Below are positions 4,343 to 33,028 of a stretch of DNA of 64,000 nucleotides, one piece after another; within the stretch, counting starts at the first letter, position 1, and the number at the start of each line of letters is the position of its first letter. Under the pieces are notes generated by a model. The model ran no database searches. It was not told the origin of the DNA and saw nothing but the letters and a program-made list of their open reading frames with translations. Source of the DNA: Ditibartonella choladocola (lineage in GTDB: Bacteria; Pseudomonadota; Alphaproteobacteria; Rhizobiales; Rhizobiaceae); contig NZ_CP015625.1 of NCBI RefSeq assembly GCF_002007565.1, forward strand, positions 1 to 64,000, in the 5' to 3' direction. A program made the translations under genes and the position numbers.

Positions 4343-4633
4343 AGTGTCGGCAAAAGCCGAATAACGGCAAAATCCGAAATATCCTGACGCGGGGATTGGT
4401 TTTTGTGAAATCTTCAAAAAAATGAAATCAATTTCCGACAGAACCGATTTGAAATTTATAAAAACCGGCTAACACCTTTGAAACTCTGCTAAAAAGGGAA
4501 TTTACAATCGAGCGGCGCGTGCTCTAACGATTGATTTATAGATGTTCTTGCAATCGACTTTATTGCAGTTGAATCTGTTCGATCTTGTTAAAACCTGTTT
4601 TCAGGCGGTCTTTTGATAAAAATAGGCCGGTTT

Positions 4634-4785
4634 ATAAAAATAGACCGTTGTGGAGAGGGGGAAACCACAACGGCCTTTTTTACTGCACTTCAATCAACAG
4701 TCCGGAGAGGGAAAGTAGACTGTTGCATCCGGTAAACGGCGGGGGACAAAGCCGGACAACCGGACATATCGACGCAGTGTCGATA
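4634..4785 (-). ncRNA. Small RNA resembling the alpha-r7 family, upstream of polA
   Basis: The minus strand has a sigma70-like promoter: TTGAAA at 4819-4814, 17 bp, TTTATA at 4796-4791. Downstream comes a string of hairpins. The first is a 7-bp stem at 4767-4785. A CCGG-closed stem-loop spans 4729-4755. A perfect 8-bp stem at 4695-4702/4718-4725 has a loop reading CTTTCCCTCTCC. The last is a 9-bp terminator stem at 4645-4653/4665-4673 with loop TTTCCCCCTCTC, followed by five U. The length of about 150 nt and pyrimidine-rich loops able to pair with Shine-Dalgarno sequences match my recollection of the rhizobial alpha-r7 (Smr7C) trans-acting sRNA, which also lies beside polA. The family name is inferred; promoter, hairpins and terminator are seen. 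Confidence 0.7.
4645..4682. terminator. Bidirectional rho-independent terminator
   Basis: Perfect 9-bp stem CCGTTGTGG / CCACAACGG with an 11-nt loop. A T-run follows on the plus strand (4676-4681) and five T on the minus strand (4640-4636). It ends the putative small RNA on the minus strand and could also stop readthrough from dnaQ. Confidence 0.75.
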
Positions 4786-4985
4786 GGTCATATAAAAGAA
4801 TTTAAAAATGGCTTTTCAAGGGCAACTATATTAACATTTTGTAACAAATGCGTGAAAAGAACCTATAAGGACCTGACGATAAATTTTGCGCGCTCCACAT
4901 TTTCTATCGTTTGCCGATGGGCTTTTTTGGTTCAATATGCTTTTAGACTATAAAATGTTTTCAAAATTCGATGTCAGGATTGACG

Positions 4986-7934
4986 ATGCACAAAAATGAT
5001 CACCTTTTTCTCGTTGACGGTTCAAGCTATATTTTTCGCGCCTATCACGCTTTGCCGCCATTAACACGGAAAAAAGACGGTTTGCCTGTTGGTGCACTGG
5101 CGGGTTTTTGCAATATGCTCTGGAAATTGCTGTGTGATGCGCGTGATACAGCAGTTGGCGTTGTGCCGACGCATTTTGCTGTCATTTTTGACTATTCATC
5201 GGAAACGTTCCGTAAAAAGATATATCCCGAATATAAAGCAAACCGCCCTACTCCACCTGAAGATCTTATTCCCCAATTCAGCCTTATCAGGCAGGCTACC
5301 CGCGCTTTCAATCTACCCTGCATTGAAAAAGAAGGTTATGAGGCGGACGATATTATCGCGACTTATGCTTCGGCGGCTACCCGAAGTGGTGCAAAAACGA
5401 CAATCATTTCTTCCGACAAGGATCTCATGCAACTCGTCAATCAACAGGTCGGGATGTATGACGGCATGAAAGACCGCCCGATCGGCATTAAAGAAGTTAT
5501 TGAAAAATGGGGCGTTCCGCCTGAAAAGATGATTGATTTGCAATCTCTTACCGGCGATTCGACCGATAATGTTCCAGGTGTTCCGGGTATTGGCCCGAAA
5601 ACAGCAGCCCAGCTTCTTGATGAATTTGGTGATCTTGATACGCTGTTGGCTCATGCCGGAGACATCAAACAACAAAAACGTCGTGAAAATATCATTGAAT
5701 TTGCCGATCAGGCAAGATTGGCACGTCAACTTGTAACATTGAAAACCGATGTTCCGCTTGAAATCGGTCTTGATGGGCTTCTGTTGGAGCCAACCGACGG
5801 GCCGCGCCTTATCGGCTTTTTGAAAGCAATGGAATTCAATTCTTTGACGCGCCGTGTTGCAGAAGCGACCAATTGTGATGCAGCTTTGATCGAGCCGGTC
5901 AATCTTGATGTCGAATGGGGCAAGAGTGCCCACGGTCCTGATCTTGAGTCGGGTTCGGATGTCGGCGGAGCGCCGGAAGCGAGTGGCAATCTTGAGCAAG
6001 AACAAAAAAGCGGCTCTGACGGTGCACAGGAAAACACCCCGCAGCTTCTTGCAGAAAAACGTAAAAAAGAAGCACTCACAGAAAAAATAGATACCACCGC
6101 TTATCACACCATAACGGACGAAGCCGAACTGAAACAGTGGCTTGATCGGGCTTTGGAACAGGGGTTCTTTGCATTCGATACCGAAACGACTTCACTTGAT
6201 CCGATGCAAGCGGAACTTGTCGGCTTTTCTATAGGTCTTAATGCCGGTGAAGCGGCCTATGTGCCACTTAACCATGTCGATGGTAGCAATGATTTACTGG
6301 GCGGCGGACGCCTGAAGGGACAAATTGATACACAAAAAGCCGTCGCTTTATTGAAACCGGTATTGGAAAATCCTGCAATATTAAAAATTGCGCAAAATAT
6401 GAAATATGATTGGCTGGTAATGCGACAATATCAGGTCACAATCCGGTCTTTCGACGATACGATGTTGCTTTCCTATGTTCTGGATGCCGGAACTTTGACC
6501 CACGGGATGGACGCACTTTCAGAGCGCTGGTTGGGACATAAGCCGATTACTTTCAAAGAGGTTGCCGGAAGTGGAAAAACGGCAACGGGTTTTGCAGCCG
6601 TCGATTTGAAACGGGCAACACAATATGCGGCCGAAGATGCCGATGTTACGTTGCGACTTTGGCGGGTTTTAAAACCGCAAATTGTCGCGCGCGGTGTTAC
6701 CCGTGTTTATGAACGTCTGGAGCGGCCATTGGTGACCGTTCTTGCGCGCATGGAAGAACGTGGTGTTCTGGTTGATCGGCAATTATTGTCGCGACTATCC
6801 GGCGAGCTTGCCCAGTCGGCGGCCGCTTTGGAAGATGAAATCTATCAACTTGCCGGAGAAAAGTTCAATATCGGTTCGCCCAAACAATTGGGTGAAATAT
6901 TGTTCGGAAAAATGGGTTTGCCCGGCGGCTCGAAAACCAAAACCGGTCAATGGTCAACATCGGCTCAGGTTCTTGAAGATCTGGCAGCAGAGGGGCATGA
7001 ATTACCCCGCAAGATTGTTGATTGGCGCCAGCTAACAAAATTGAAATCGACTTATACGGATGCTCTTCCGAATTATATTTTACCCGATACGGGGCGCGTT
7101 CATACGAATTATTCAATGGCTGCAACGTCGACCGGAAGGCTTGCCTCGTCAGATCCGAATTTGCAAAATATTCCGGTTCGCACCACAGAGGGAAGAAAAA
7201 TTCGTGCCGCTTTTATCGCCGGTCCCGGTAATTTGCTATTGTCGGCCGATTACAGCCAGATTGAATTGCGTGTTCTTGCCCATGTCGCCGATATTAAAGC
7301 ACTGAAGAAAGCGTTTGCAGATGGCCTTGATATTCATGCAATGACGGCATCGGAAATGTTCGGTGTGCCGATCGAGGGTATGCCACCGGAGGTTCGCCGT
7401 CGCGCCAAGGCGATCAATTTCGGGATTATCTATGGCATTTCTGCCTTCGGTCTTGCCAATCAATTGTCGATTCCGCGCGAGGAAGCAGCCCAATATATCC
7501 GCACCTATTTTGAACGTTTCCCCGGTATCAAGGACTATATGGAAAAAACCAAAGCCTATGCGCATGAACATGGTTTTGTCGAAACAATTTTCGGGCGTCG
7601 TATCCATTATCCGGAAATCAATTCAAAAAATGCGCAAATGCGTGCATTTAACGAGCGAGCGGCAATTAATGCACCAATTCAGGGGGCTGCTGCCGATATT
7701 ATCCGTCGCGCCATGATAAAAATGGATGACGCGTTGAAGGAAGCCGGCTTATCGGCAAAAATGTTGTTGCAGGTTCATGATGAACTGATTTTCGAGTTGC
7801 CTGAAAACGAGGTTGAAAAAACCACCGCTCTCGTAAAAGACGTGATGGAAAATGCCACTATGCCGGCATTGTCTCTCACTGTGCCGCTTAAAGTTGATGC
7901 ACGGGCAGCAAAAAATTGGGATGAAGCCCATTAA
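4986..7934 (+). CDS. polA: DNA polymerase I
   Basis: Repair and Okazaki-fragment polymerase, 982 residues, somewhat longer than the E. coli enzyme. The N-terminal 5'-nuclease domain (about 1-290) contains EGYEADDIIATYA. The 3'-5' exonuclease domain (about 370-580) keeps FDTETTSLDP, NMKYDWLV and YAAEDADVT, so proofreading looks intact. The polymerase domain has motif A DYSQIELRVLAH, motif B RRRAKAINFGIIYG and motif C QVHDELIFELP. The ATG at 4986 is chosen because AGGA lies 7 bp before it; the ATG at 4971 would add five residues. A charged, low-complexity linker joins the first two domains. Its upstream region holds the minus-strand small RNA. Confidence 0.96.
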   Translation: MHKNDHLFLVDGSSYIFRAYHALPPLTRKKDGLPVGALAGFCNMLWKLLCDARDTAVGVVPTHFAVIFDYSSETFRKKIYPEYKANRPTPPEDLIPQFSLIRQATRAFNLPCIEKEGYEADDIIATYASAATRSGAKTTIISSDKDLMQLVNQQVGMYDGMKDRPIGIKEVIEKWGVPPEKMIDLQSLTGDSTDNVPGVPGIGPKTAAQLLDEFGDLDTLLAHAGDIKQQKRRENIIEFADQARLARQLVTLKTDVPLEIGLDGLLLEPTDGPRLIGFLKAMEFNSLTRRVAEATNCDAALIEPVNLDVEWGKSAHGPDLESGSDVGGAPEASGNLEQEQKSGSDGAQENTPQLLAEKRKKEALTEKIDTTAYHTITDEAELKQWLDRALEQGFFAFDTETTSLDPMQAELVGFSIGLNAGEAAYVPLNHVDGSNDLLGGGRLKGQIDTQKAVALLKPVLENPAILKIAQNMKYDWLVMRQYQVTIRSFDDTMLLSYVLDAGTLTHGMDALSERWLGHKPITFKEVAGSGKTATGFAAVDLKRATQYAAEDADVTLRLWRVLKPQIVARGVTRVYERLERPLVTVLARMEERGVLVDRQLLSRLSGELAQSAAALEDEIYQLAGEKFNIGSPKQLGEILFGKMGLPGGSKTKTGQWSTSAQVLEDLAAEGHELPRKIVDWRQLTKLKSTYTDALPNYILPDTGRVHTNYSMAATSTGRLASSDPNLQNIPVRTTEGRKIRAAFIAGPGNLLLSADYSQIELRVLAHVADIKALKKAFADGLDIHAMTASEMFGVPIEGMPPEVRRRAKAINFGIIYGISAFGLANQLSIPREEAAQYIRTYFERFPGIKDYMEKTKAYAHEHGFVETIFGRRIHYPEINSKNAQMRAFNERAAINAPIQGAAADIIRRAMIKMDDALKEAGLSAKMLLQVHDELIFELPENEVEKTTALVKDVMENATMPALSLTVPLKVDARAAKNWDEAH

Positions 7935-27035: not shown

Positions 27036-27221
27036 GACCGATCTCCCTGAAGATATTTAAGATGACAAATCCGCAAACCGCCGGAATGGCTGCGGCAATT
27101 CTTGATTATCAGGATAAAGGCAAAATTTAGAATGATATAGCTAAAAAATATTGTTCAATTCAAAAAAATAAAATTTTTTTCTAATGTATAAGCAATCGAT
27201 GAAAACGCATACCGAATAAAA

Positions 27222-27252
27222 AGGAAGTTCGTTCTTGCTGCAAGAACTTCCT
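27222..27252 (-). terminator. Duplicated terminator hairpin in the left repeat
   Basis: Perfect 9-bp stem AGGAAGTTC / GAACTTCCT followed on the minus strand by five T. It is a copy of the terminator of the aldo/keto reductase gene at 31777-31807 and now stands upstream of cysK. Confidence 0.75.
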
Positions 27253-27281
27253 CTTACCTGTCGGTTCATGAATGGAAGCTA

Positions 27282-27388
27282 TTAATAGCGGCTTGCCTGA
27301 TCGAGTATTTCAATATCTTCATTGTTCAGATTGATTGTCACTGCTTTCACAAGACTGGAAAGCTGGTCAATCTTGGTAGCACTGGCAA
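27282..27388 (-). pseudogene. Truncated 3' fragment of an aldo/keto reductase gene
   Basis: About 35 C-terminal codons of the reductase at 31837-32793, including its stop codon, with no upstream coding part: the frame is cut at 27388 where the island begins. It is a by-product of the event that placed the island here, and has no start codon or promoter. Confidence 0.9.
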
Positions 27389-27463
27389 CATTAATAAATA
27401 AATTGACAATATCTCATATTTAGAATAACTCAAAAGAATAAATATGTTTGTGAGGGGGATCTC

Positions 27464-27763
27464 ATGAAAAAAAGGCTTTTTTTTGCATCTATAGCTGCTT
27501 TAACTGCTGGCCTGACCGGCGGGGATGCGACAGCTTCTACGAATATCAATACCAAAGTTGAATCTGTTTCAGAGACTGGAATTAACAATGGTCTTACATC
27601 TAAAACCATGATGATTTCTAACGGAAATGATCCTTTTTCTTTTATTCTGAAAACTTCAGCTCCGGCAAATGCTATGGATTATCATATGTCACATATCTCA
27701 CATAGCTCCCATAGCTCGCATAGTTCTCACGCCTCTCATAGTTCACATTATTCAGGTTATTAA
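27464..27763 (+). CDS. hxsA: His-Xaa-Ser repeat precursor peptide HxsA
   Basis: A 99-residue secreted or RiPP-like precursor. Residues 1-25 look like a signal peptide (KKRLFFASIAALTAGLTGG). A linker follows, and the C-terminal 27 residues hold eight consecutive His-x-Ser triplets: HMS, HIS, HSS, HSS, HSS, HAS, HSS and HYS, ending in GY. This is the hallmark of the HxsA family, the presumed substrate of the two radical SAM enzymes encoded downstream. GAGGGGG at 27452-27458 is a strong ribosome binding site. TTGACA at 27403-27408 may be the -35 of the operon; the -10 is poor. Family assignment is firm; the chemistry done on the repeats is not known to me. Confidence 0.9.
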   Translation: MKKRLFFASIAALTAGLTGGDATASTNINTKVESVSETGINNGLTSKTMMISNGNDPFSFILKTSAPANAMDYHMSHISHSSHSSHSSHASHSSHYSGY

Positions 27764-27782
27764 TAACCAGGTTATTAATAAT

Positions 27783-28085
27783 ATGTCTAACAGAGTGATA
27801 TTAGAGTTTGATTGTGTAGTTTATAGTTCCACTGCAATCCAAAAGGCTGCATATAGAGCTATGAATTTTATGCTCGTGCACATTGATCTAAATGAAGAGA
27901 AAATTATTTGCATTTGTGAGCCTACATCTGACGCTGATAATGACCAATTCGAGAAAGCAATACAAGAATTTAAAAAAGACGTATTGGACTATAGCTTACG
28001 TGAAAAAATTCGAGATGAAACTACTCCGATACGGAATTTAATATTAGGTATTGCTTTTTCAAAAACAGGTGCGGGAAGTGAGTAA
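27783..28085 (+). CDS. hxsD: His-Xaa-Ser system protein HxsD
   Basis: A 100-residue cytosolic protein. Its LDYSLREKIRDET block near residue 78 matches the conserved LLNDYxLRE motif that defines HxsD, the small protein always found with HxsB and HxsC. A role as partner or peptide-recognition protein for the maturases is inferred from constant co-occurrence. It starts 19 bp after hxsA. A perfect 14-bp palindrome GGTTATTAATAACC (27755-27768) spans the hxsA stop and a CCAGG before the start. An open frame extends upstream into hxsA but lacks support. The stop overlaps the hxsB start. Confidence 0.88.
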   Translation: MSNRVILEFDCVVYSSTAIQKAAYRAMNFMLVHIDLNEEKIICICEPTSDADNDQFEKAIQEFKKDVLDYSLREKIRDETTPIRNLILGIAFSKTGAGSE

Positions 28086-29535
28086 ATTTAAAAGTATTGA
28101 TTCCTATATTCCAAAAAAAGAATATGAACTTTTACCATTTAAATTTGATCATTTTGACGATAAGCGTTGTATCATTACAAATATGGTCGGAGAATACCTA
28201 TTATTAAATAATAATGATTTATATAGTCTAATAAATAAAAAAATTTCGTCTGATAGTTCTATATTTTCTTCATTACGTAGTAAGCACTTTATTCGTTATG
28301 AAGGTGAAAATTCACCTTTAGAACTTTTAGCTTTAAAATATAGGACTAGGCTTTCTAAGCTGGTTAACTTTACTAATTTACATGTTTTTGTAGTTACATT
28401 ACGGTGTGATCATAGTTGTCCTTATTGTCAAGTATCACGGCAATCAGAAGATAAAAATCAATTTGATATGACGTATGAGATGGCTGACAAAGCATTAGAT
28501 TTTGTTTTTAAATCGCCAAATCCAGCCATTAAGATTGAATTTCAGGGCGGCGAACCGTTATTAAATTTCCCAATGGTTCAATATATTGTTGAACAGGCAG
28601 AATTTCGGAATAAATCGGAAAACCGTAATTTACAGTTTGTTATTGCTACTACACTTTCGTTATTGACGGATGAAATCCTTGAATTTTGTCGTGACCACTC
28701 TGTTATGTTGTCCTCATCTCTAGATGGCCCTCAAGATTTGCATAATGCAAATCGTCCAAGACCCTCAAAAAATAGCCATCAGCTATTTGAAGACGGATTA
28801 AATAAAGCGAGAGCAGTTTTGGGTTATGACCGAGTATCAGCGTTAATGACAACAACAGACAAGAGCCTATCCCGTGTTCGTGATATAATAGATGAATACG
28901 TTAGACTTGGATTTAACAGCGTTTTTTTACGCGCACTCTCGCCTTATGGTTTTGCGATCAAAACAAAACGTTACATGATGTATGACGTAGATCGCTGGCT
29001 GAAATTTTTTAAAGAGGGTTTGGATTATATTATATTTTTGAATAAGTCAGGCATTCCTTTTGTCGAGGTTTATTCGGCTTTGATATTAAAAAAGATGCTA
29101 ACATCTGACGATCCAGGCTTTGTCGATTTAATGAATCCTGCTGGAGCAGGTATAGCCGCGATTGTTTTTAACTATGATGGTTATGTCTATGCCTCAGATG
29201 AAAGTCGCATGTTAGCCGAGATGGGCGATTTTAAATTTAGATTAGGGAATATATTAACGCAATCTTATGAGGATATTATCTTTTCGGATCAACTTCTCGA
29301 TGCTTTGGAAGACTCATTTACGCTCAGTGTTCCAATGTGCTCTGATTGTGCCTTTGAACCATATTGCGGTGCAGAACCTGTCTTTCATTATGCCGTCTAT
29401 AAAGACATGGTTGGACGAAAACCTGAATCTGCTTTTTGTAAAAAAAATATGTCGATTTATAAGCACTTAATAACACTGATGGAGAACGACGAAGAAACGA
29501 AAAGTATATTTCTTAGATGGGCAACTCAATGTTAA
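28078..29535 (+). CDS. hxsB: His-Xaa-Ser system radical SAM maturase HxsB
   Basis: A 485-residue radical SAM protein. The N-terminal region (about 1-105) is family-specific. The radical SAM cluster motif is CDHSCPYC near residue 115, followed by EFQGGEPLLN (the GGE motif). The C-terminal SPASM-like region has CSDCAFEPYCG and a later cysteine (SAFCKKN), suggesting auxiliary Fe-S clusters as in peptide-modifying maturases. It probably modifies the HxS repeats of HxsA together with HxsC. The GTG at 28078 overlaps the hxsD stop and precedes the conserved FKSIDSYIP; GTG 28069 or TTG 28051 are alternatives. Base composition is very AT-rich (12 G+C in the 60 bases from 28081). Confidence 0.9.
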   Translation: MSKFKSIDSYIPKKEYELLPFKFDHFDDKRCIITNMVGEYLLLNNNDLYSLINKKISSDSSIFSSLRSKHFIRYEGENSPLELLALKYRTRLSKLVNFTNLHVFVVTLRCDHSCPYCQVSRQSEDKNQFDMTYEMADKALDFVFKSPNPAIKIEFQGGEPLLNFPMVQYIVEQAEFRNKSENRNLQFVIATTLSLLTDEILEFCRDHSVMLSSSLDGPQDLHNANRPRPSKNSHQLFEDGLNKARAVLGYDRVSALMTTTDKSLSRVRDIIDEYVRLGFNSVFLRALSPYGFAIKTKRYMMYDVDRWLKFFKEGLDYIIFLNKSGIPFVEVYSALILKKMLTSDDPGFVDLMNPAGAGIAAIVFNYDGYVYASDESRMLAEMGDFKFRLGNILTQSYEDIIFSDQLLDALEDSFTLSVPMCSDCAFEPYCGAEPVFHYAVYKDMVGRKPESAFCKKNMSIYKHLITLMENDEETKSIFLRWATQC

Positions 29536-30689
29536 AGTTATTTGGAAATATAAAAAATCATATTTTTGATGACAATTTGTTTGTGAATCCAATTAAAATT
29601 TCAACTAACGCGAATTTACCAAACGTTTTAAAAAATAAATATGCCTATTTAATTAATGATAATAATTACAGTGAGGGGTTTTTTCATTATATAGTTTTTA
29701 ATGATTTTTTTGAAAAAAATAAAGAAATTTTAGATACAAAAAGTTACTCTATAATTCCTGACGATTTTAAATATTTATCCAACGATGATATCGTAAGTAT
29801 TAATCCGAATCAGAACAAAATAAGAGTTCTTTTTAGATCACATTCAAATTTTAATAGTATATTAGTCACAGAACAATGTAATCATTATTGTTTAATGTGC
29901 TCCCAACCGCCGAAGCCGAAAGACGATTCATATCTTCTGGACGAAATCGAAAATTTAATACCTTTGATACCAAGGTATACAAAGGAAATCGGGTTTACGG
30001 GAGGAGAACCTACTACGAATCGTGATCGATTTTTGAAAATACTCCGGCTAACTAAAAGCTATCTACCAGAAACGAGTATTCACATATTATCAAACGGCAG
30101 GAGTTTTCGGGATTTCCATTTTGCAAAAAGTTATGCAGATCTAGAACTTACTGATAGTATGGTGGGTATCCCTCTTTATTCTGATGACCCGAGTTTGCAT
30201 AATTATATTGTGCAGTCGGATAATGCTTTTGATGAAACTGTACAGGGCATAATAAATTTAAAAAAGTTAAACCAAAAGGTTGAAATTAGAATCGTACTCC
30301 ACCGGTTATCTGTAAAACGTTTAATTCAGTTATGCGAATTTATAGGTAGAAATTTGCTTTTCGTGGACCATGTGGCTCTTATGGGGCTTGAAATAATGGG
30401 TTTTACTCGAGCGAATTTACAAGAGTTATGGATAGACCCGTTTGATTATAAAGATAAATTAAGCCAAGCGACATCCATTTTAAAATCGTATGGTCTAAAT
30501 GCCTCTATATACAACCATCAACTATGTGTTGTGAACGAAAATGTTTGGCCGTTTTGCCGCCAATCCATTAGCGACTGGAAAAATGAATTTGCAATTGAAT
30601 GTCAAACATGCACCAAGCGTTGTGATTGTGGCGGTTTTTTTTCTTCGGGCCTATTATATAAACACAGCGACCACTTACATCCGTTGTAA
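29517..30689 (+). CDS. hxsC: His-Xaa-Ser system radical SAM maturase HxsC
   Basis: The second, shorter radical SAM protein of the system, up to 390 residues. The cluster motif CNHYCLMC lies near residue 120 and GFTGGEPTTN near 160. The C-terminus has a cysteine cluster (CQTCTKRCDCGGFF) and ends in HSDHLHPL, typical of HxsC. It overlaps hxsB. ATG 29517 opens the frame; ATG 29529 lies closer to the hxsB stop and is a good alternative. Composition is extremely AT-rich (13 G+C in the 60 bases from 29641), unlike chromosomal neighbours, indicating transfer. Confidence 0.9.
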   Translation: MGNSMLKLFGNIKNHIFDDNLFVNPIKISTNANLPNVLKNKYAYLINDNNYSEGFFHYIVFNDFFEKNKEILDTKSYSIIPDDFKYLSNDDIVSINPNQNKIRVLFRSHSNFNSILVTEQCNHYCLMCSQPPKPKDDSYLLDEIENLIPLIPRYTKEIGFTGGEPTTNRDRFLKILRLTKSYLPETSIHILSNGRSFRDFHFAKSYADLELTDSMVGIPLYSDDPSLHNYIVQSDNAFDETVQGIINLKKLNQKVEIRIVLHRLSVKRLIQLCEFIGRNLLFVDHVALMGLEIMGFTRANLQELWIDPFDYKDKLSQATSILKSYGLNASIYNHQLCVVNENVWPFCRQSISDWKNEFAIECQTCTKRCDCGGFFSSGLLYKHSDHLHPL

Positions 30690-30699
30690 GGAAGTTGAT

Positions 30700-30765
30700 A
30701 TGAGAGGAAATTTTTCTCAAATCGCAATTAATGGCAGGATCGAAAATAATAAAAGCGAAGAGTAA
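30700..30765 (+). CDS. Possible 21-residue peptide downstream of hxsC
   Basis: A short frame starting MRGNFSQIAINGR and ending NNKSEE, 10 bp after the hxsC stop. AAGGAAG at 30688-30694 is one of the best ribosome binding sites in the island and is well placed for this ATG. It contains no cysteine or HxS triplet. It could be a real small peptide of the operon or a decayed gene start. Confidence 0.4.
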   Translation: MRGNFSQIAINGRIENNKSEE

Positions 30766-30794
30766 AATGCATTTAATGGATTTATATAATCGTA

Positions 30795-31541
30795 TTATTT
30801 AATTCCATAACTTAAAACTTGGGTGCCGCATATTTTGACCATTGATACGACTATAGCCGCTGCATCATATCCGGTGCAGTTTCCTGTAAAACTGCATATG
30901 GCTTCAGAAACACTAACATTGGCGCATTGGCTTCGATTACCTCCTAAAGCTAAGCATATACCTACGCCTAGGTCGTTATCTCCTATTCCGGTACAGTCGT
31001 AGCTGGCTCTCCCCCCTGAAATGCAAAAAGCTTCGCCTAAGCTCATCAGGCTGTTACATAGAAATGATGAACCTGTTGAAGCCGTTCCAGCAGCACAGAT
31101 GCCTGCTCCCAAGCTCATCTCGCTGTTACATAGAAATGATGAACCTGTTGAAGCTGTTCCAGCAGCACAGATACCGGCTCCCAAGCTCATCAGGCTGTTA
31201 CATAGAAATGATGAACCTGTTGAAGCCGTTCCAGCAGCACAGATGCCGGCTCCCAAGCTCATCTCGCTGTTACATAGAAATGATGAACGCGTTGAAGCCG
31301 TTCCAGCAGCACAGATGCCGGCTCCCAAGCTCATCTCGCTGTTACATAGATATGATGAACCTGTTGAAGCTGTTCCAGCAATGCAAACTGCTTCTCCGGA
31401 AAAATTTCCTGAGCGTAGAAATATGGGCATGAGCATTTGCGAAATTTTACAAAAGTTTCGAATTTCGTTGTATGTTTGGCCAATAGAAAGAGAAGGGAAA
31501 GCAAGTAATATAAATAAAGCAATAGGAAAAATTTTTTTCAT
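30795..31541 (-). CDS. Secreted cysteine-rich repeat protein, unknown function
   Basis: A 248-residue protein convergent with the hxs operon and inside the same flanking repeats. A signal peptide (residues 1-22, KKIFPIALFILLAFPSLSIG) is followed by five near-perfect 24-residue repeats with cysteines at positions 1 and 14 (CAAGTASTGSSFLC then NSEMSLGAGI). Further degenerate copies (CISGGRASYDC, CLALGGNRSQC) and a final CSFTGNC follow. The even spacing suggests disulfide-linked repeats in the periplasm or outside the cell. I do not recognise a family. No clear ribosome binding site precedes the ATG at 31541. A partner or target of the hxs product is only a guess from location. Confidence 0.75.
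   Translation of the reverse strand: MKKIFPIALFILLAFPSLSIGQTYNEIRNFCKISQMLMPIFLRSGNFSGEAVCIAGTASTGSSYLCNSEMSLGAGICAAGTASTRSSFLCNSEMSLGAGICAAGTASTGSSFLCNSLMSLGAGICAAGTASTGSSFLCNSEMSLGAGICAAGTASTGSSFLCNSLMSLGEAFCISGGRASYDCTGIGDNDLGVGICLALGGNRSQCANVSVSEAICSFTGNCTGYDAAAIVVSMVKICGTQVLSYGIK
31057..31416. repeat. Five tandem 72-bp repeats inside the cysteine-rich protein gene
   Basis: Units begin at 31057, 31129, 31201, 31273 and 31345, exactly 72 bp apart, and differ by only a few bases. Each encodes 24 residues. Such near-identity points to recent expansion or homogenisation and to likely length variation between strains. Confidence 0.95.
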
Positions 31542-31678
31542 ACGGGCTAGCTTTTTTACAGTTCATGGGCATGAGTAGTTTAAATCTTGTTCAGTTTCCA
31601 TGATAGTCGTTTTCTTCAGATGCGTTATAGTCCGAACAATTTTTTCACGTTCCCGCTTGCTTGTTATCATGAAAAAGG

Positions 31679-31943
31679 AAAATTTAGAATGATATAGCTA
31701 AAAAATATTGTTCAATTCAAAAAATAAAATTTTTTCTAATGTATAAGCAATTAATGAAAACGCATACCGAATAAAAAGGAAGTTCGTGCTTGCTGCAAGA
31801 ACTTCCTCTTACTTGTCGGTTCATGAATGGAAGCTATTAATAGCGGCTTGCCTGATCGAGTATTTCAATATCTTCATTGTTCAGATTGATTGTCACTGCT
31901 TTCACAAGACTGGAAAGCTGGTCAATCTTGGTAGCACTGGCAA
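31679..31943. repeat. Right direct repeat of the hxs island (265 bp)
   Basis: Partner of 27122-27388. This copy is the native one, because it continues into the intact aldo/keto reductase gene. It covers the last 35 codons of that gene, the terminator hairpin and about 100 bp beyond. Confidence 0.95.
31777..31807 (-). terminator. Terminator of the aldo/keto reductase gene
   Basis: Perfect 9-bp stem AGGAAGTTC / GAACTTCCT with a 13-nt loop, followed on the minus strand by a five-T run. Confidence 0.8.
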
Positions 31944-32793
31944 TTGGTGCGGTTACTGCCGGTTTGGCGATAAGCCAGGCAAGGGCAATTTCAGCCTGTT
32001 TGGCGTTATGCTTTTCACTGATTGTATCAAGAGCGTCCAAAATCCGCATTCCGCGGGGGTTCAAATATTTTTCGACTCTTGAACCACGTTTATGACCGGC
32101 AAGATCTTCTTTCGAGCGATATTTACCGGAAAGGAATCCTGAAGCGAGACTATAATAGGTAATGACTCCGAGACCATATTTTCGAGCAGTATCGGCAAGC
32201 GACCCCTCGAATGTGTTGCGATCATACAAATTATATTCGGGCTGGAGCGTTTGATAAGAGGGGAGATTGTTATTTTTAGCGACGATCATTGCTTGTTCTA
32301 GCTGTTCTGCCGTTATGTTTGAACAGCCAATTGCGCGAATTTTTCCCGCTTTCAGCAATTTGCTATAAGCTTCCAGTGTTTCTTCAAAAGGGGTTTCCGG
32401 GTCAAACCAGTGTGATTGATAAAGATCGATAAACTCGACATGCAAACGACGAAGAGAATCCTCGACAGCCTGTTCGATCCAGCGCGCGGAAAGACCTTTG
32501 TGACCGGCTATCCCCATATCCGAGCCGACCTTGGTGAAAATATAGAATTTGTCTCGCTTGGACGGATTTTGTTTCAACCAGTTGCCGATAATGGTTTCGG
32601 ATTCGCCCCCTTTATTTCCTTCAACCCATGTTGAGTAGGCATCGGCTGTATCAATCGCATTAAGTCCGCTTTCCGAAATCGCATCAAGCATTTTAAAGGA
32701 TTGTTTTTCGTCCAGCGTCCAGCCGAAGACATTGCACCCGAAAACCAGAGGTACAATATTGAAACCGGTATTACCCAAAGCACGATATTTCAT
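31837..32793 (-). CDS. Aldo/keto reductase
   Basis: An NAD(P)H-dependent oxidoreductase of 318 residues with a TIM-barrel fold. It starts MKYRALGNTGFNIVPLVFG. The catalytic aspartate and tyrosine are in AIDTADAYS, the lysine in IFTKVG and the histidine in LYQSHWFDP. The substrate is unknown. AAGGACA lies just before the ATG at 32793; an upstream extension of the frame has no support. Its last 35 codons are duplicated at 27282-27388 on the other side of the hxs island, so the island was inserted next to this gene without destroying it. Confidence 0.92.
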   Translation of the reverse strand: MKYRALGNTGFNIVPLVFGCNVFGWTLDEKQSFKMLDAISESGLNAIDTADAYSTWVEGNKGGESETIIGNWLKQNPSKRDKFYIFTKVGSDMGIAGHKGLSARWIEQAVEDSLRRLHVEFIDLYQSHWFDPETPFEETLEAYSKLLKAGKIRAIGCSNITAEQLEQAMIVAKNNNLPSYQTLQPEYNLYDRNTFEGSLADTARKYGLGVITYYSLASGFLSGKYRSKEDLAGHKRGSRVEKYLNPRGMRILDALDTISEKHNAKQAEIALAWLIAKPAVTAPIASATKIDQLSSLVKAVTINLNNEDIEILDQASRY

Positions 32794-33028
32794 GGAGTGT
32801 CCTTTCAACGGTTCTCTGCCGGCAAGAAACGTATTGTCTATTGGCAAAAGAGATTGTTCGAGCCTAACCACTTTTCCACTCCGGAGAAAGCGTCTCACAG
32901 GGTTTTGATAATTTCATGCTTTTGTCAGATTTTAACCGTAAATTAACGAATATTTTTATTTTGAGGGAAAAGTTTGTTATTGTCATTTTTGGACAATGCA
33001 CGAATATCGAATGAATGGATTATAATTC

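Follow-up and report, generated by a model that had tools for sequence, protein, structure and literature searches.

A His-Xaa-Ser (HxsA2-D-B-C) operon on a repeat-flanked island of Ditibartonella choladocola

The His-Xaa-Ser (Hxs) system of the NCBIfam families brings together four genes in the order hxsA, hxsD, hxsB and hxsC, with a short precursor ending in a run of HxS triplets and with characteristic Cys motifs. Triceptide maturases such as HaaB, YhhB and MscB offer a chemical point of comparison: they are radical S-adenosylmethionine (SAM) enzymes that mature ribosomally synthesised and post-translationally modified peptides (RiPPs) on aromatic-X-X triplets, and they form three-residue cyclophanes that link His C2 to Ala C-beta in HaaB, His C2 to Arg C-beta in YhhB and Phe C4 to Ser C-beta in MscB (PMC11002830). 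The window analysed here, i.e. the whole stretch of 64,000 nucleotides at positions 1 to 64,000 of contig NZ_CP015625.1 of Ditibartonella choladocola, carries an hxs operon which shares all four genes, their order, the short precursor with its C-terminal run and the Cys motifs with the NCBIfam system. It differs in lying on a repeat-flanked island of 4.28 kb beside a gene for a Cys-repeat protein, and in a run of eight triplets where six is the mode at other loci. This work confirmed it as a genuine HxsA2-D-B-C system, hence of a kind already known, and showed it to be the cargo of a recently transferred island, a setting absent from the first-pass annotation of this DNA. No paper describing an Hxs product was found in the open-licence literature, a search outside which most subscription journals fall.

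The island lies at the 3' end of an aldo-keto reductase (AKR) gene (Table 1). It lies between two direct repeats, each some 280 bp long, a sequence which occurs only twice in the whole genome and is made of the AKR 3' end and the spacer to cysK; the two copies are 97% identical over 225 nt and 92% identical over the adjoining 63 nt. Its GC content is about 0.36, versus 0.45 elsewhere in the window, and its cargo consists of hxsADBC and the convergent Cys-repeat protein gene. The sister genomes G007 and G021 have an empty site, where cysK adjoins the AKR gene with a single copy of the repeat; these two genes are also adjacent in G012 and G014, and close AKR orthologues (87%) were found in G007, G018 and G021. 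The duplicated 3' gene end, the empty site in relatives and the low GC recall integrative islands with direct repeats at the 3' end of a gene. Unlike these, no integrase or recombinase was recognised among the named genes of 27389-31672 or in the two longest overlapping open reading frames (ORFs; 138 and 185 aa), smaller ORFs not having been searched, and the repeats, about 280 bp long, are largely host-specific, which is in keeping with homologous recombination rather than with a short attachment (att) site.

The same island was found in G018, which belongs to the genus of the window, and in Bartonella sp. M0177 (L071), with an insertion point common to all three carriers. The host Bartonella group is presumably the bee-gut group, as read partly from the labels of metagenome-assembled genomes (MAGs). 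Over 4.0 kb, the island of the window is 97.2% identical to that of G018 and 96.5% identical to that of M0177, versus 78-83% in the flanks. The number of synonymous substitutions per synonymous site (dS) between the window and G018 was 0.059 in hxsB and 0.063 in hxsC, against 1.81 in cysK and 2.30 in the AKR gene, and between the window and M0177 it was 0.056 in hxsB and 0.072 in hxsC, against 1.54 in cysK, the fold difference between island and flank being rough because values above about 1.5 are near saturation. In the closer pair, G018 and M0177, dS was 0.045 in hxsB and 0.197 in cysK. Island dS far under flank dS, together with the empty sites in G007 and G021, indicates a recent transfer of the cassette among Bartonella species at one fixed locus. 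An island inherited from a common ancestor, lost in G007 and G021 and kept similar elsewhere by strong constraint, would fit the shared insertion point, but it is very improbable since synonymous sites are nearly identical too (dS 0.056-0.072, versus 1.5-1.8 in cysK), and the difference between hxsB and cysK in the closer pair also speaks against it. Between the window and G018, 17 synonymous and 2 nonsynonymous substitutions were counted in hxsB, and 14 and 3 in hxsC, and this low nonsynonymous divergence (dN) suggests that the system has been kept functional. Besides the saturation of flank dS, what weighs on the other side is hxsD, whose counts show no constraint (1 synonymous and 1 nonsynonymous versus G018, 3 and 4 versus M0177).

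Homologous recombination at one locus is, most simply, the route that these comparisons suggest. The repeat copies of one genome are alike (94.7% over the aligned repeat in the window, 89.1% in G018, 84.6% in M0177), and those of the window and G018 reach only 57-62% when compared with each other. The sister pair G018 and M0177 does not follow this host-specific pattern, its right copies being 94.0% and its left copies 90.2% identical. The right repeat of M0177 is a mosaic, G018-like at its start and then similar to the left copy of M0177 itself. Over about their last 20 bp, the left repeats of G018 and M0177 agree, and differ from the empty sites. On the strength of this mosaic, of the agreement within genomes and of the shared left ends, we read the repeats as traces of entry through the repeat by homologous recombination, in which part of the right repeat may have been carried along, with later conversion between the copies.

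The identity of the operon was evaluated by a hidden Markov model (HMM) scan against NCBIfam models with their curated cut-offs. The HxsA2, HxsD, HxsB and HxsC models were all exceeded by the proteins of the window (Table 1), which supports the hxsADBC identity given in the first-pass annotation, and an ORF check bore out the four genes where that annotation had placed them. Lack of HMM matches to the Hxs families, which would have refuted it, was not observed. That annotation had proposed TIGR03976 to TIGR03979 as the relevant models: TIGR03976, TIGR03977 and TIGR03978 indeed matched, but TIGR03979 (HxsA proper, cut-off 121.65) was missed by the precursor, which scored 19.8 bits in hmmscan and 35.1 bits in a genome search, and HxsA2 (NF038296) stands in for it. 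The search of the window's own genome with TIGR03979 was unspecific, since it picked up other His- and Ser-rich places at comparable E-values, and matches arose in 5 of 14 control genomes as well. The genes had been described as overlapping in one operon, which is true of hxsD and hxsB (8 nt, hxsB starting with GTG at 28078) and of hxsB and hxsC (19 nt), but hxsA and hxsD are separated by a gap of 19 nt. For comparison, HxsB relatives were collected from GTDB r220, with a single genome scanned for each species; this gave 125 confirmed stretches, and the best 80 loci were kept; all four genes matched in 72 of these, in the order A-D-B-C on one strand in 71.

Table 1. Coordinates of the hxs operon, of the island that carries it and of associated features in the window.
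Feature	Position	Strand	Details
hxsA (HxsA2)	27464..27763	+	NF038296, 65.2 bits (cut-off 48)
hxsD	27783..28085	+	100 aa; TIGR03976, 61.2 bits (cut-off 50)
hxsB	28078..29535	+	485 aa, GTG start; TIGR03978, 639.8 bits (cut-off 370)
hxsC	29517..30689	+	390 aa, radical SAM; TIGR03977, 387.8 bits (cut-off 267.9)
Left direct-repeat copy	27116..27388		Intergenic region and AKR 3' tail
Island body	27389..31672		About 4.28 kb; junctions, low GC, empty sites in G007 and G021
Right direct-repeat copy	31673..31943		Continuous with the intact AKR gene
AKR gene, 3' end = insertion site	31837..32898	-	PF00248, 233.3 bits
Cys-repeat protein gene	30795..31541	-	248 aa; convergent with hxsC; 24-aa units, 18 Cys
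Possible RNA hairpin between hxsA and hxsD	27755..27783	+	Minimum free energy -11.9 kcal/mol, z -1.85; weak

The precursor HxsA2 has 99 aa, is rich in His and free of Cys, and ends in HMS HIS HSS HSS HSS HAS HSS HYS-GY, i.e. eight uninterrupted HxS triplets followed by GY. Both the signal peptide and the eight terminal triplets announced by the earlier annotation were recovered, the former as a signal-peptide-like N-terminus judged by eye, the latter in the translation. When the residues of HxsA2 were shuffled 20,000 times, the longest HxS run was 3, in 4 shuffles. The compactness of the precursor and its uninterrupted repeats had been put forward as special; they are real but not distinctive. 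Among 77 HxsA sequences (the window and 76 of the 78 loci left after dropping the near-copies L069 and L071, two loci having no HxsA by the pattern used), the run lies at most 6 residues from the C-terminus in 67, and its longest length is 5 (n = 15), 6 (42), 7 (11), 8 (5) or 9 (4) triplets, with X mostly S, A, R or Y. By these sequence comparisons, the precursor of the window is typical of its kind, with a rather long run.

The Cys motifs of the two radical SAM enzymes, CDHSCPYC in HxsB and CNHYCLMC with C-terminal Cys in HxsC, are as first described and are conserved in alignments. Each radical SAM Cys of HxsB occurs in 79 of 79 aligned sequences, as do four further C-terminal Cys, and C203 (query numbering) occurs in 72; in HxsC, the three radical SAM Cys were found in 77 of 78 sequences and four C-terminal Cys in all 78. 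The match of HxsB to the SPASM Pfam domain stays under its gathering score (18.8 vs 21.5 bits). HxsB was queried as 484 aa, without its first residue (GTG 28078), and its structure model (mean predicted local distance difference test score, pLDDT, 87.0) begins with short strands at 15-43 and two helices at 44-67. This model resembles RiPP maturases and their relatives: its best structural match is anSME (Z 34.4), followed by CteB (5wgg, Z 32.6 over 403 residues), ChlB (Z 31.9) and TigE (Z 26.1), and it also aligns with SkfB and SuiB. The alignments with CteB and TigE start from residues 19 and 11 of HxsB, respectively, and thus reach the N-terminal strands-then-helices domain, which leads us to predict for HxsB an N-terminal domain like a RiPP recognition element (RRE), in addition to a radical SAM fold and one C-terminal Cys4 auxiliary site. 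HxsB shares its overall fold with CteB and TigE, into the N-terminal domain, but the identity is 16-18% and HxsB has only four auxiliary-type C-terminal Cys. The HxsD model is a beta-alpha-beta-beta-alpha structure (mean pLDDT 89.8). Foldseek found nothing for it at E <= 0.001, and the rows listed by VIA-align were of ferredoxin-like, Pcc1 or KH type, none of them an RRE; their Z values, at most 7.7, did not exceed the stated background. A PDB sequence search with HxsD gave a single match (E 0.64), and HxsD matches a PHROG of unknown function (E 2.1e-6). Weak viperin-type PADLOC matches of HxsB and HxsC, considered for a role in anti-phage defence, were taken as superfamily similarity.

From a mechanistic point of view, we consider it on balance probable that a maintained HxsA2-D-B-C system is carried by a cassette in which no integrase is recognised, that its HxS triplets are modified and the tail exported, and that the cassette spreads by homologous recombination. 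HxsA2 would carry a Sec-type signal peptide when synthesised. Its C-terminal triplets would be modified in the cytoplasm by HxsB, which would rely on its predicted RRE-like domain, and by HxsC, with the help of HxsD, and the modified peptide would then be exported to the envelope. Spread of the cassette would use the flanking repeats at the cysK-AKR locus. The chemistry favoured is a carbon-carbon crosslink from His(i) to Ser(i+2) in each triplet, which would give a row of three-residue rings, and HxsC may act at the same or at a second position. If some modification does occur, this ring is our tentative first choice, by analogy with His (HaaB, YhhB) and Ser as acceptor (MscB), precedents known from separate enzymes (PMC11002830) that join an aromatic residue to the beta-carbon of the residue two positions further on, and because of the strict three-residue HxS period. 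Hxs differs from the triceptide maturases in using two radical SAM enzymes and HxsD, and in its tandem triplets without spacers. Several results weigh against this scheme. Most structural rows span HxsB 93-469 only and few cover the N-terminal domain. HxsB lies far under the cut-offs of the cyclophane maturases YhhB (62.9/445 bits), GrrM/OscB (47.4/310) and AmcB (48.3/425), and its best NCBIfam model outside HxsB is PapB, a ranthipeptide thioether maturase, itself under the cut-off (110.1 vs 340 bits), so that the bond type is a guess. As for HxsD, its modelled fold and the lack of RRE-like matches among those listed led us to reject an RRE as its likeliest reading.

The same system may also carry another tail modification, such as Ser oxidation, epimerisation or a His-Ser C-O or C-N bond, with the tail perhaps acting as a metal-binding strip, which we hold to be conceivable though rather doubtful. 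The enzyme anSME, best structural match of HxsB, oxidises Cys or Ser residues, and the precursor is His-rich and Cys-free; against this, no datum separates such a modification from the ring model, and the three-residue period fits repeated single-residue chemistry as well. A Cys thioether in the tail is excluded because the precursor has no Cys. It is unlikely that the product is a bacteriocin directed against other gut bacteria: the niche would allow it, since a RiPP of Gilliamella, from the bee gut, inhibits Melissococcus plutonius (PMC10673953), and the cassette is mobile, with a patchy distribution (2 of 37 genus genomes), but none of the island genes could be recognised as coding for a transporter, a protease or an immunity protein, and a PG_binding_1 domain on the HxsA of L063 and L066 points to an envelope-located protein.

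The system is rare in the class. HxsC was over cut-off in 7 of 385 genomes at class level, that of the window included, and at genus level HxsB was over cut-off only in the window's genome and in G018. The nearest HxsB sequences outside the Bartonella-type island are from Pseudomonas (69-73%) and Methylophilus (70-71%). All four island rows, of which one is labelled Gilliamella, group as one clade of the HxsB tree (support 100/100). This clade is nested in a 29-row set (96/88) otherwise made up of Pseudomonas and Methylophilus, apart from the other alphaproteobacterial rows, support for the exact sister group being 93/48. A beta- or gammaproteobacterial source of the island thus appears likely from the tree. 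The Gilliamella-labelled row (L069) is a 3,551-bp contig of a MAG, 99% identical to the window, whose bin has no close AKR (best 36%); this island fragment reflects either transfer to a different site, in a gammaproteobacterium, or misbinning of a contig from Bartonella, and was not counted as a host. Among plasmids, HxsB relatives (E <= 1e-30) were found on 409 of 72,556 records, 325 of them predicted conjugative; 316 of the 409 are from Klebsiella, and 407 are below 60% identity. The Klebsiella plasmid HxsB proteins are distant, at about 31-32% identity among those listed. Relatives were also found on 2 of 50,697 phage records and in 2 contigs of IMG/VR. One of these phage records, the Leptospira phage KF114877 (L158, 4293-7602), is annotated with hxsA, hxsD, hxsB and hxsC, followed by a 'mobilome CxxCx(11)CxxC protein'. 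One of the IMG/VR contigs, L150 (1495-6573), has hxsADBC as phage or prophage cargo, hxsA starting some 0.9 kb beyond the gene for a phage major head protein. Two published sources list hxs among conjugative-element and phage genes of Pseudomonas aeruginosa ST277, with a map legend that names a genomic island, and place hxs genes at a variable locus of Vibrio parahaemolyticus (PMC8446631, PMC6537148). With these cases and the plasmid and phage records, mobility of hxs is not new; the literature searched, partly at the level of titles only, did not show the repeat-flanked form seen here in Bartonella.

The Cys-repeat protein has a signal-peptide-like start (by eye) and a Cys spacing of 13/11. 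It is also encoded in the G018 and M0177 islands, with a repeat number and a unit length that vary among the three, and its gene accompanies hxs at 3 of 80 loci, each of which is an island copy. It belongs to no NCBIfam family, gave no Pfam match over the gathering score and is encoded only once in its own genome; of the 13 relatives searched, one (G018) has it, and no relatives were found in plasmids, in viral contigs or elsewhere outside the Bartonella islands. A PDB match (E 0.56) was obtained, and one marginal PHROG match (E 0.0011) was not used. This protein may be an Hxs partner or only a passenger. At other loci, a neighbour Pfam scan of 109 of the 185 ORFs of at least 100 aa (150 listed), long or doubtful ones being omitted, gave CCP_MauG, a di-haem peroxidase, as the commonest family, in 4 of 109 (L115, L138, L141, L144). 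Such a gene lies downstream of hxsC at these four loci and at L065, in Polynucleobacter, the PS1 clade, SAR116 and another alphaproteobacterium; none was found in the genome of the window. A gene for a short PG_binding_1 protein lies between hxsC and the CCP_MauG gene in L115 and L144, but no downstream peptidoglycan-binding gene matched in L127, L138 and L141, and it is not a constant of hxs loci. A protein with GDSL-type and propeller domains is encoded beside hxs in L118, L122 and L061, that of L061 being 29% identical to the L060/L122 protein. Since each of these genes occurs at some loci only, partner genes vary by lineage. L061 belongs to a small-genome alphaproteobacterium, in which hxsB (4496-5951) appears as two overlapping ORFs, through a frameshift or an assembly error.

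Comparative data, namely the PG_binding_1 domains on HxsA and the MauG-type peroxidase genes, point to a possible envelope role. A bolder reading, which we regard as quite improbable as a whole, is that HxsB and HxsC convert the tandem HxS tail into an unbroken series of His-Ser three-residue rings, and that this polymer is exported, resides in the envelope and serves in redox reactions or metal binding. The Cys-repeat protein would be its partner in Bartonella and travel with it, the self-contained cassette being moved by homologous recombination; in some lineages, the gene just downstream is that of a di-haem MauG-type peroxidase.

As regards expression, the possible hairpin between hxsA and hxsD is short and AT-rich and is present in G018 too; Rfam gave no match, for this hairpin or otherwise. 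Promoter-like sites numbered 16, versus 19.0 in shuffles, and terminator-like sites 4, versus 2.5. By eye, a TTGACA can be made out just within the island at its left junction; the promoter scan does not list it.

The Hxs system is catalogued in NCBIfam, and its chemistry is an old open question. Bartonella apis, a bee symbiont, has been engineered by electroporation (PMC11389375). One 4.28-kb cassette, present in some Bartonella genomes and lacking from others at the same locus, constitutes a natural experiment, and it is this recent cassette transfer, together with the presence/absence pair, which makes the old question testable.

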